Assembly (NCBI GenBank): GCA_030692515.1
Contig: JAUXZS010000056.1
Span: 434,001-498,000, forward strand
Length of the DNA stretch: 64,000 nt
Source of the DNA: Bacteroidota bacterium
Lineage (GTDB): Bacteria > Bacteroidota > Bacteroidia > B-17B0 > Aurantibacillaceae
Direction: 5' to 3'
Position 1 is the first letter of the stretch. Every line of letters begins with the position of its first letter. Positions 814 through 7,745 of the stretch are shown here, piece by piece. The notes beneath the pieces are model-generated. The model saw only the letters and a list, made by a program, of their open reading frames with translations, searched no databases and was not told the origin of the DNA. A program made the position numbers and the translations under genes.

Positions 814-3513
814 TCAGGAAACCGCTTCTAAACGTTCTTTACCAAAATCTAAAATTTTGTCAATGAACTCGTAAGGTTTATAATTATTTATCGCGGCTTG
901 ATGAAAGATGCATGTTGCGGGTGTCATGCCCGGTAATGAATTAACCTCAATAAAAATTATCTCTGCTCTGTAGTCAGGATAAACTCTAACAAAGGCATCT
1001 ATTCTGCAATATCCTGTAACTCCCAAAGCTTTTGCTGCCCCGCCTAATGCTTTCTTAACTTGTTCGCTTACTTTTTGTCTGTCTTTTACATCTTTAGCGT
1101 AACGCGCAGGCGTAATATTTTGACCTTGACCGGCTAAAAATTTTTCTTCTAAACTTAAAATTTCTCCATCTGCTAAAGCTTCCGACGCTTCAAATACTTC
1201 GTATTGAATTTCACCAGCTGCATTTATTTTGGTAAGCATGCCACCTGTAATTTCTAAGAAGTGAGCGGCATCTTTTTTACTGATTAATTCTTCAACCAAC
1301 ACAACTTGTTTTTGCGGAAATTCTTCTTTTGGTTTAATATGCAAAATGTTTGCTGCTTGAGCATCAAACTCTTCGGTGGGTCTAAAAAGTAATTTGCAAA
1401 ATGCTTCAAACTCTTCTAGAGTTTTTATTTTTTTAACTGCACTGCTACATCCGTCATCCACTGGTTTTGCAATAAAAGGATACTTAATTCGGTTTTCTAA
1501 AATCTCGGCAAGTTTGTTTTTGTCATTGGCCCATTCGTCTTTAGAAATTAAAATATGGTCGGCAATTAAGAAGCCGTTATTTTTTAAAATCTCATTCGTT
1601 CTGTATTTATCTATTGTAATAGATGAACTTTCTTTATTAGAACCATTATAAGGTAAATTTAATTTATCTAACTCTTCCTGAATTGCGCCATCTTCTCCTG
1701 GCCTTCCATGCAAGGCAATAAATACTTCGTCGGCTTTTTGTTTTAATGTAGCGTAAGTTAATTTTTCTGGTTCTGCTGTATGGTTGGTTGAAGCATATTT
1801 ATGAGTAATAGCTTCGCACTCTTGCATAATTTTTTTTATGACAGTGTGCACCTTAAAATTTTCTACTTTTTCTTTTATATCGTCTGCATTATCTTTTAAC
1901 AACAAATTAATTGGCACGTGATACATTTGATGCTCTTTAGAATTGCCAGTTAAAAAAACCGGAAACGGCGCATATTTTTCTGACGACGATAATTTTTCAA
2001 AAACATTTCTTCCACTTTCAACAGAGATATGTCTTTCAGAGGAGTAACCTCCTAAAACTACAGCTACACGAATTTTTTTTCCGGCAGCTGTTTTTTCTTT
2101 ATGAATTTGTTCGTCTAACAGTTGTAATAAATTTTTATAGTTTACATTTCCCTTTGATTGTTTTAATCGTTTAGAAAGGGAAGTGCGAATGATGAATGTT
2201 AGAAATTGTGAGGGATTTAATCCTATTTCTGCTGCTTGATGAAAGAAGAAAGACGATGGCATCATGCCACTTGTAGTATTTGGATCGTTCAAAAATATTT
2301 TTCCATCTGTACTTAAAAATCCATCAATACGCGCATACACATCAAAATGTAATTCGTAAAATAATTTTTCACAATCTTTTCTTATTGCTTCAATTTGTTC
2401 GTCAGGCAAATCAATAGGCGTTATTTTTCTGGCTAATCCTGGTAAGTATTTGCTTCTGTAATCAAATAATTCTTTTCCTTTTTTTATTTCGGTAGGGGGT
2501 AATGCAATTGCTACGCCATGTTCGTCTTCTAAAACAATACAACTAAATTCTTTTCCTTCAATAAAGCTTTCTACTAAAACGGTGCTTTCTCCATCAATGC
2601 TTTCAATAATAAAGCCATCTGTTTTTAAATTATAATCTAAAAATTCTAATAATGTTTTTGGGTCGTAAATTATTGGAGCATTTAAATCTGCCGGGTAACT
2701 AATTACAATTGGCATGCCTAAGCCTTCGCGAATGTCTGCAACTTGTTTTACGTAATTAAATTTTTGGTCAGGAGTAAAAGCCATCCATTCGTTCGCATCA
2801 ACCCATTTTGTAAACAAGGCTTTTTCTACCGCGCTCATAAATGCAAATTCATTCTCAGAATTTAAAACACTTATACCAATGCTTGAACCTTGGTTAGCCG
2901 GTTTTACAACACAGGGAAATCCTATTTTTTCTTTTACTATATCAAATGGTTTACCGGCAGTTCCTTCAATCCAATCTTTTCTATCAATAGTAATATATTC
3001 TGGGCTGTTAAAGCCTTTGCTTACCATCATTTCTTTTTGCACCGCTTTATCTATTCCAATGGCTGACGCTAAAATTCCAGAACCGCTATAAGGTATTTGA
3101 TGGTACTCGAATAAGCCTTGTATACGGCCGTCTTCACCATACGGACCATGCAAACACAAAAAGGCAAAATCAATTTTTGTTTTTAAATCTGTGATAGATA
3201 ATTTTTTTCCAATTTTAGAAATTAAAGCATCTTGTTGTTCTTCGTTTAAATTACCCAAATTTTCTGCGTACAATTGAAAATGCGAGTTGTTAGGTAAAAA
3301 ATCAACCGGAGGGTAAAAATCACGAATGGTGCCTTTGTAAATATATTCCCATTTTAATTCAATAAAATTTCCAAAACTATCTACAAAAACCGGAACGGCT
3401 TCAAATAAGAATTTGTTTAAGTTATCATAAACTGTGCGACCGCCAGCAAACGATATTTCACGCTCTTTACTTTGTCCTCCAAAAATTATTCCAACCCTTA
3501 TTTTTTTTGCCAT
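814..3513 (-). CDS. Tandem D-alanine-D-alanine ligase-like ATP-grasp protein (two fused Ddl modules)
   Basis: About 899 aa from ATG 3513. The frame extends to 3567, but MAKKIRVGIIFGG is the natural Ddl N-terminus. Two complete Ddl-like modules follow each other. Module A (about residues 1-470) has GGQSKEREIS, LHGPYGEDG, KPANQGSSIG, FDYRSKY and a metal site NDPNTTSGM. Module B (about 476-899) restarts with KKIRVAVVLGGYSSERHIS, LHGRPGEDG, KPVDDGCSS and IEVNSLPGMT. Standard Ddl is about 310-330 aa, so each module also carries insertions. Canonical Ddl joins two D-alanines with ATP for peptidoglycan. Here the Tyr-rich loop of module B is altered (SLEEKF), and both modules carry FHQAA after the metal motif where classical Ddl has a Ser/Pro-containing segment. 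The substrate may therefore be another amino acid or peptide. Ligase fold is confident; the exact reaction is not. Confidence 0.85.
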   Translation of the reverse strand: MAKKIRVGIIFGGQSKEREISFAGGRTVYDNLNKFLFEAVPVFVDSFGNFIELKWEYIYKGTIRDFYPPVDFLPNNSHFQLYAENLGNLNEEQQDALISKIGKKLSITDLKTKIDFAFLCLHGPYGEDGRIQGLFEYHQIPYSGSGILASAIGIDKAVQKEMMVSKGFNSPEYITIDRKDWIEGTAGKPFDIVKEKIGFPCVVKPANQGSSIGISVLNSENEFAFMSAVEKALFTKWVDANEWMAFTPDQKFNYVKQVADIREGLGMPIVISYPADLNAPIIYDPKTLLEFLDYNLKTDGFIIESIDGESTVLVESFIEGKEFSCIVLEDEHGVAIALPPTEIKKGKELFDYRSKYLPGLARKITPIDLPDEQIEAIRKDCEKLFYELHFDVYARIDGFLSTDGKIFLNDPNTTSGMMPSSFFFHQAAEIGLNPSQFLTFIIRTSLSKRLKQSKGNVNYKNLLQLLDEQIHKEKTAAGKKIRVAVVLGGYSSERHISVESGRNVFEKLSSSEKYAPFPVFLTGNSKEHQMYHVPINLLLKDNADDIKEKVENFKVHTVIKKIMQECEAITHKYASTNHTAEPEKLTYATLKQKADEVFIALHGRPGEDGAIQEELDKLNLPYNGSNKESSSITIDKYRTNEILKNNGFLIADHILISKDEWANDKNKLAEILENRIKYPFIAKPVDDGCSSAVKKIKTLEEFEAFCKLLFRPTEEFDAQAANILHIKPKEEFPQKQVVLVEELISKKDAAHFLEITGGMLTKINAAGEIQYEVFEASEALADGEILSLEEKFLAGQGQNITPARYAKDVKDRQKVSEQVKKALGGAAKALGVTGYCRIDAFVRVYPDYRAEIIFIEVNSLPGMTPATCIFHQAAINNYKPYEFIDKILDFGKERLEAVS

Positions 3514-3658
3514 ATCTAAAATTACGCTACAAATTGAATATAATCCAAAAATAACAGAAAGCTGCAATGAAGAAACCTTTAGTTTTGGAATTAATTAACA
3601 TTGGTATGTAGATACTTATGACATTTTGGTAGTCTTTATTACTTAATTTTATGACCTA

Positions 3659-7244: not shown

Positions 7245-7745
7245 TTATTTAGATTCGGTTAATTCAAACTTCCAATCTTTAGCAAATTTTATTTGAGCAG
7301 CTAAAATTTTATCATACACTTGGCTGTAAGTGTTATCAAACCTAGTTGCTATTTCATTTATTTTATCAAGATTTTGTTGTGTAATTTGAACCGTGTCTAT
7401 TAACATAATGTCAACCATTTGTTTTCCTTCATTTTCTGCAAGGTTTTTTATTATTGTAAAATATTCTTCGGTAACATCACGATATTCTTTTGTATCAGCA
7501 AAAGGCAAGATTTTTTTACTGGCTTCTAAACTCGCATTTGCTTTTTTAGAAAATAATTTGTGCGTTATTTTTAATGAATCCATATTGTGCCCGTCTATTT
7601 GATCTAAAAATAAATTATGCTCCACAATAAGACTATCAACGATAGACATTAAAGAATCATTGTATGCGATGGCTTCGTTTTGTGTTGGTCCACAAGAAAC
7701 CAAAAAAAATGTAAATGCACTTATTAAGAGTATTAATTTTTTCAT
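7245..7745 (-). CDS. Small helical lipoprotein of unknown function
   Basis: 166 aa. MKKLILLISAFTFFLVSCGPTQ is a lipoprotein signal peptide with lipobox LVSC; the Cys is about residue 18. The mature part is almost entirely predicted helical and charged (LMSIVDSLIVEHNLFLDQID, EYFTIIKNLAENEGKQMVD), suggesting a helical bundle facing the periplasm. I do not recognise a named family beyond generic Bacteroidota lipoproteins. It lies 69 nt downstream of ahcY on the same strand, but a strong terminator separates them, so it probably has its own promoter. Confidence 0.8.
   Translation of the reverse strand: MKKLILLISAFTFFLVSCGPTQNEAIAYNDSLMSIVDSLIVEHNLFLDQIDGHNMDSLKITHKLFSKKANASLEASKKILPFADTKEYRDVTEEYFTIIKNLAENEGKQMVDIMLIDTVQITQQNLDKINEIATRFDNTYSQVYDKILAAQIKFAKDWKFELTESK

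Follow-up and report, generated by a model that had tools for sequence, protein, structure and literature searches.

A tandem Ddl with two diverged modules as the candidate sole D-Ala–D-Ala ligase of a Bacteroidota bacterium

The minus strand of the window, the 64,000-nucleotide stretch of DNA analysed here, carries at positions 814-3513 one gene for a chain of 899 amino acids that holds two D-Ala–D-Ala ligase (Ddl) modules, each of them complete. We lean towards the view that this tandem protein is the host's sole cell-wall D-Ala–D-Ala ligase, with the first module (A) as the maker of the dipeptide and the second (B) probably as a second live ligase site, the reactions being assigned from sequence and predicted structure. 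Textbooks present Ddl as an essential enzyme and a target of antibiotics, and it is normally one compact module. Most likely an ordinary cell-wall job is done here by an unusual double enzyme that has been fixed over a large part of the class.

The open reading frame spans 814-3567 from a TTG start, and the ATG at 3513 gives the 899-residue chain (plus stop) and agrees with the start of its relatives; all window coordinates given here are on the minus strand. Pfam places two Dala_Dala_lig_N and four Dala_Dala_lig_C stretches on the chain, PF01820 matches the gene twice, 1.4 kb apart in a single reading frame, and PF07478 stretches are present in both halves, in agreement with the two full Ddl modules of the original prediction. 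The whole chain is called Ddl by TIGR01205 with 387 bits (cut-off 245.65), and two fragments split near residue 491 score 238 and 137 bits, both below the cut-off. Pfam and NCBIfam assign D-Ala–D-Ala ligase to both halves. From the alignment and the predicted model, module A comprises residues 1-454 (2152-3513) and module B residues 480-899 (817-2076); the secondary structure of the model gives a helical linker between them (residues 455-479, 2077-2151). E. coli DdlA and DdlB (TIGR01205, PF01820 plus PF07478) have their fold and domain order in common with each module. Relative to them both modules are enlarged by insertions, as had been predicted: residues 88-108 and the 73-residue stretch 235-307 (2593-2811) in A, and residues 568-588 and 712-733 in B. 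Across 85 tandems the A and B halves are on average about 25% identical. The mean pairwise identity is 0.64 among the A modules and 0.66 among the B modules, which indicates that A and B are constrained about equally.

The host genome (68 contigs with a total of 4.33 Mb, completeness rated 100%) was searched for a second Ddl. The tandem's own sequence found none elsewhere in the 68 contigs, and PF01820 gave no match in the genome outside the tandem. PF07478 matched eight further places, six of them above the cut-off and none with PF01820. Since PF07478 matched all 14 control genomes, archaea included, its matches extend to ATP-grasp proteins that are not Ddl. Three such places, named by reading, look like ATP-grasp enzymes of other kinds: a 298-aa RimK-like protein, a PurT-like one and a PurK-like one. 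An 891-aa frame (G000:C53:4873-6243, plus strand), matched by the Mur ligase middle-domain model as well as by the Ddl-C (ATP-grasp) one, looks to us like a cyanophycin synthetase. The dcw cluster on contig 18 runs murE, mraY, murD, ftsW, murG, murC, ftsQ, ftsA (named by reading, with PF08245 supporting the Mur ligases), and there is no ddl between murC and ftsQ, where ddlB sits in E. coli. The same contig encodes a fusion of a MurF-type ligase and alanine racemase (L081:910-3357, plus strand), in which a maker of D-Ala and a user of D-Ala–D-Ala appear to share one chain. The failure to find another Ddl, the dcw cluster without ddl and the presence of this fusion together make the tandem most likely the cell-wall Ddl. 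The original prediction had expected a separate, normal ddl and pointed to the mur genes as the place to look; none was found there, elsewhere in the host, or as a second Ddl in any of the 47 tandem genomes described below. It had also named the lack of any other ddl in the genome as one half of what would mark this gene as simply the cell-wall ligase, and no other ddl was found. An M15 peptidase (PF01427, VanX family) is encoded in the host genome and was not counted as evidence because PF01427 also matches 3 of the 14 controls.

The tandem form is widespread. Among 60 genomes, one of them the host's, the tandem occurs in 47 and a single Ddl in 11, two gave no match and none has both; the last statement rests on this set, in which all first-look candidates were scored. 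Within the genus 37 of 37 genomes have the tandem, as do 10 of the 23 from elsewhere in the class. A survey of 396 genomes of the class with a completeness of 90% or more, with at most two candidates scored per genome, found the tandem in 161, a form without most of module B in four (family f31) and no match in four; the remaining 227, obtained by subtraction, gave weak matches like those of single Ddls. About four in ten of the sampled class genomes thus carry a double Ddl with an invariantly altered second site. The tandem search can miss, as it gave no match in G054 and G059 of the smaller set and in G059, G586, G588 and G652 of the larger. Five family codes (f28, f87, f94, f100 and f101) contain both the tandem and the single form, so that loss, replacement or transfer probably occurred more than once. 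In one otherwise tandem-type family (f101), a short contig (L180) of genome G597 carries a single Ddl that resembles DdlA, either a replacement or a contamination. Named genomes gave at least 593 pattern matches, at least 576 of which encode a relative, and the best 80 include cultured Pontibacter species; Pontibacter has the tandem at loci L156 and L161-L163.

Beyond the class, PF01820 matches at most once per genome in 223 other members of the phylum, with no match in G175. Among the 73 class genomes of this survey (host included) six have two matches; these are tandems in G000, G128, G222 and G234, and weak pairs that look like one split domain in G055 and G102. Thirteen tandem genomes of the 396-genome survey (G053 and 12 others) gave two matches, which are parts of one gene or parts that lie on separate contigs, mostly complementary. 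The pieces overlap in G433 (about 70 residues) and in G550 (about 170), and in G518 the second half is present twice, at contig starts, with the first half not found; a second copy is possible in these three. A 1389-codon frame in G592 was rejected as an overlong tandem, as it is an antisense overlap with an apparent pgk. In G191 a 901-aa frame (L204, minus strand) contains an ordinary Ddl after about 500 residues without a Pfam match, either a fusion or a mere extension of the frame.

Gene neighbourhoods were compared at the 87 tandem loci with enough flank, which represent 85 distinct proteins. A PASTA-domain gene is near 39 of them, a T9SS-sorted gene of the type seen at L049 near 39, Ham1 near 40 and RluD near 23, with at least one of the four near 55 of the 87; counted per distinct protein the numbers are 37, 37, 38, 21 and 53. 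The 11 single-Ddl loci have PASTA in five, the T9SS-sorted gene in five, Ham1 in two and RluD in three, and none of the four was found near the four f31 loci. Neighbour names were checked with Pfam on one tandem locus (4/4) and one single-Ddl locus (3/4). The single ddl of L067 lies between Ham1 and PASTA like the tandem of L049, on the opposite strand. In four of the five single-Ddl loci with PASTA this gene is divergent from ddl, and in the fifth (L065) it follows ddl on the same strand. In many genomes the tandem therefore occupies, between Ham1 and PASTA, a slot that is also open to an ordinary ddl, mostly in a different orientation. As the two forms share the slot but mostly not the direction, descent in place from an ordinary ddl does not follow.

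The phylogenetic tree (72 rows, with 20 of the 104 tandems, three of the four f31 rows, 27 singles and E. coli DdlA and DdlB) places module B in one clade (support 100/100) and module A together with the f31 proteins in another (100/99), which supports the predicted old age of the duplication. A branch with support 98/92 sets A and B apart from every single Ddl and from DdlA and DdlB of E. coli, a split that is weakened by long branches. The tandem modules do not group with the single Ddls from the shared PASTA slot. Together with the reversed direction of four of the five PASTA-adjacent single ddls, this separation suggests that ddl may have been replaced by the tandem instead of giving rise to it.

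Family f31 (four genomes, three genus codes; L176, L178, L211 and L212) provides a ready natural control in which the ATP-grasp of module B has been lost. In its Ddl of 551-590 aa, module A is followed by about 85 residues from the beginning of module B, and the second ATP-grasp is missing. The tandem query matched one place in each of the four genomes, and PF01820 matched once in each of the two that were surveyed. The remnant of B is predicted to be ordered, with pLDDT above 90 in eight of nine ten-residue blocks (model mean pLDDT 89, pTM 0.89). Because f31 lies inside the module A clade (group support 88/94), the loss looks secondary. That a family lost the ATP-grasp of B and yet kept A makes module A most likely the dipeptide ligase. 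The f31 proteins retain Asp at position 270 of module A and have Pro-Gly-Met-Ser where the tandems mostly have Ser-Gly-Met-Met, so a module A freed from the ATP-grasp of B looks, by its residues, more like an ordinary Ddl. As tandem A modules lack Pro-Gly-Met-Ser, A may depend on B within the tandem, which hints at a mutual dependence of the two modules.

Active-site residues were counted in E. coli DdlB numbering in 104 distinct tandems, which remained of 126 tandem frames after removal of identical ones; tandem frames under 840 aa were dropped. The 47 single-size frames were reduced to 27 single and four f31 rows by dropping fragments, frames under 300 aa, f31 duplicates and the E. coli pair, and the f31 row L211 was kept with its start cut. 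At positions 150, 216, 281, 270 and 275, Ser, Tyr, Ser, Glu and Pro are found in 27 of 27 single Ddls. Module A retains the equivalents of Glu15, Lys97, Ser150 (Ser210, 2884-2886), Lys215, Tyr216 (Tyr356, 2446-2448), Arg255, Asp257, Asn272, Gly276 and Ser281 in 104 of 104 tandems and that of Lys144 in 103. Glu15, Ser150 and Tyr216, which we take to be the catalytic triad of DdlB, are thus complete in A throughout, and the site is classical except at the metal Glu. In the metal and acceptor segment LNDPNTTSGMMPSSFFF (residues 408-424, 2242-2292), Asp410 takes the place of Glu270 and Ser415 that of Pro275, both in all 104 tandems, and SGM follows the metal motif, as compared with PG in 27 of 27 single Ddls. 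Two modules per chain, large insertions and, in module A, these two changes set the tandem apart from E. coli DdlA and DdlB.

In module B the main ATP and Mg residues are retained, and the acceptor side and glycine loop are altered. Equivalents of Glu15, Lys97, Lys144, Glu187, Lys215, Arg255 and Asp257 are found in all 104 tandems and those of Glu270 (Glu856, 946-948), Asn272 and Gly276 in 103, with one gap. Asp257, Glu270 and Asn272, presumably the metal residues of Ddl, are accordingly all present in B (103-104/104). In contrast to DdlA and DdlB, module B has Cys689 for Ser150 (1447-1449) and Phe792 for Tyr216 (1138-1140) in every tandem and Thr867 for Ser281 (913-915) in 103 of 104, with one gap, which turns the triad into Glu/Cys/Phe. 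The glycine loop, which we take to be part of the ATP site, reads GCSSAV instead of GSSxGx in module B of all 104 tandems, whereas module A and the single Ddls retain GSSxG. Altered substrate residues had been foreseen, and the acceptor-site changes of module B, with Phe792 in the Tyr loop, bear this out. The further claim that the metal residues are kept in both modules holds for B and is inexact for A, where Asp410 replaces a Glu that is present in 27 of 27 single Ddls. Likewise, a changed Ser/Pro segment was expected in both modules and is seen in A (TTSGMM), whereas B retains Pro-Gly-Met-Thr (NSLPGMT), though with Thr867 for Ser281.

The substitutions of module B go in the direction seen in Ddls that use D-lactate. 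According to PMC7691350, Ddls restricted to D-Ala–D-Ala synthesis conserve Ser150 and Tyr216, and DdlB with Ser150 changed to Ala and Tyr216 to Phe gains a weak D-Ala–D-Lac activity. For lactic acid bacteria, PMC5996685 states that Tyr versus Phe determines dipeptide versus depsipeptide. The lactic acid bacterial Ddls with Phe share this residue with module B at the place of Tyr216, and Phe261 of LmDdl2 from Leuconostoc mesenteroides (1ehi) corresponds to it by an equivalence taken from the papers. LmDdl2 is a single module, and module B differs from it by the additional Cys and Thr and by a better score with the dipeptide model: the module B fragment (residues 492-899) scores 76.9 bits with the D-lactate model NF000206 (cut-off 550), as compared with 137 bits with TIGR01205. 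A Ddl within a larger fused chain is also represented by the MurC–Ddl fusion (NF011171), known from Chlamydia, in which the partner is MurC and not a second Ddl; the tandem scores 176 bits with this model (cut-off 1015). The large subunit of carbamoyl phosphate synthetase carries two ATP-grasp modules per chain, like the protein described here, but belongs to another family with another chemistry; the analysis turned up nothing relevant to a channel, or to channelled tripeptide synthesis, in the tandem Ddl.

An AlphaFold2 model built from an alignment of 70 tandems has a mean pLDDT of 88 and a pTM of 0.88. VIA-align superimposes residues 3-452 on Thermus thermophilus Ddl (6u1d) with a Z of 37.7 and an rmsd of 2.0. 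For residues 480-899 the best match is the D-Ala:D-Lac ligase LmDdl2 (1ehi; Z 39.0, rmsd 2.5), followed by the ordinary Ddl 3tqt (Z 37.0); Foldseek ranks Salmonella DdlA first and 1ehi 33rd. No carbamoyl phosphate synthetase chain occurs among the best 50 VIA-align entries.

What, then, does each module do? In the reading that we favour, an ancient duplication and fusion of a Ddl would have produced the tandem. Module A would bind ATP, Mg and two D-Ala to form D-Ala–D-Ala, which MurF would attach to UDP-MurNAc-tripeptide. Module B, with its main ATP-, metal- and donor-side residues retained, is probably a second live ligase site. Because its acceptor side (Cys/Phe/Thr for Ser150/Tyr216/Ser281) is shifted in the direction of the D-Ala–D-lactate ligases, B would probably take another second substrate or act under other conditions. 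Several observations do not sit easily with this proposal. In every tandem the supposed catalyst A carries Asp in place of the metal Glu, the dipeptide model outscores the D-lactate model on B, 1ehi comes only 33rd in the Foldseek ranking, Cys rather than Ala is found at Ser150, and the invariant GCSSAV loop weakens the reading of B as a live site. A sharper version, rather unlikely in our view, has the two modules draw on one D-Ala pool, with A making D-Ala–D-Ala and B a second dipeptide or depsipeptide (D-Ala–D-lactate or some other D-Ala–X), which would give the peptidoglycan two kinds of stem end in much of the Bacteroidota. A stronger competitor, which we nevertheless rate clearly below the favoured reading, is that module B does not turn over and is a regulatory or structural domain that binds ATP and D-Ala (or a product) and tunes or stabilises A, which would do all the chemistry. 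The acceptor-side and glycine-loop changes could permit binding without ligation, model confidence is lowest in the B loop that carries Phe792, and f31 dispensed with the ATP-grasp of B but kept its first about 85 residues in a well-predicted, ordered form, as a structural task for part of B would predict. Against such a role, the equivalents of Lys97, Lys144, Glu187, Lys215, Arg255, Asp257, Glu270, Asn272 and Gly276 persist in 103-104 of 104 B modules, whereas the loss of some of them would normally be expected in a dead domain this old.

Module B might also stand in for the second subunit of a Ddl homodimer, docked on A through the standard interface. According to PMC6899670, Ddl crystal structures repeat a dimer arrangement in which the elongated last helix can reach the partner, and in our predicted model the last helices of module A continue into B. 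The same paper names five conserved dimer-interface residues and, as a point against this reading, describes BpDdl itself as monomeric at low concentration. When these five are mapped to DdlB with an inferred offset of 7, module A has the same or similar residues at Gly74, Val88 and Ala92, whereas B mostly differs there, frequently with a polar or charged residue, although the Val88 equivalent is still Val in 29 of 104 B modules. Gly70 is kept in both modules and Asp96 is mostly Asp in both. A pairing of A and B by the normal Ddl interface therefore appears less likely, and we regard such an internal pseudo-dimer as improbable. The original prediction had considered a two-step ligase or channelled peptide synthesis with a normal ddl elsewhere in the genome, and thus a specialised enzyme, an idea that draws on the two differing active sites in one chain. 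No normal ddl was found in the host or in the other tandem genomes of the 60-genome set, and the gene slot of an ordinary ddl is occupied by the tandem in many relatives, so we consider this explanation highly improbable.

General Ddl family models still label the tandem as plain Ddl, and a search of titles and abstract openings found no description of a tandem Ddl enzyme; PMC4814524 was set aside as a candidate, since it concerns tandem alanines and not a tandem enzyme. Should module B be a live ligase, the peptidoglycan ends of these bacteria may depart from the textbook; should it be regulatory, the committed cell-wall step would have a built-in control.

In the window itself the PASTA, T9SS-sorted, Ham1 and RluD neighbours are gone from around the tandem ddl. 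An ECF-type sigma-70 factor (4-540) lies directly downstream on the same strand, and a LIC11966-family surface protein (NF047958) is encoded at 7245-7745, also on the minus strand. In G234 a tandem Ddl and a PASTA domain are joined in frame in one chain of 1184 aa (L214:3790-7341, plus strand), which fits the common pairing of ddl and PASTA.
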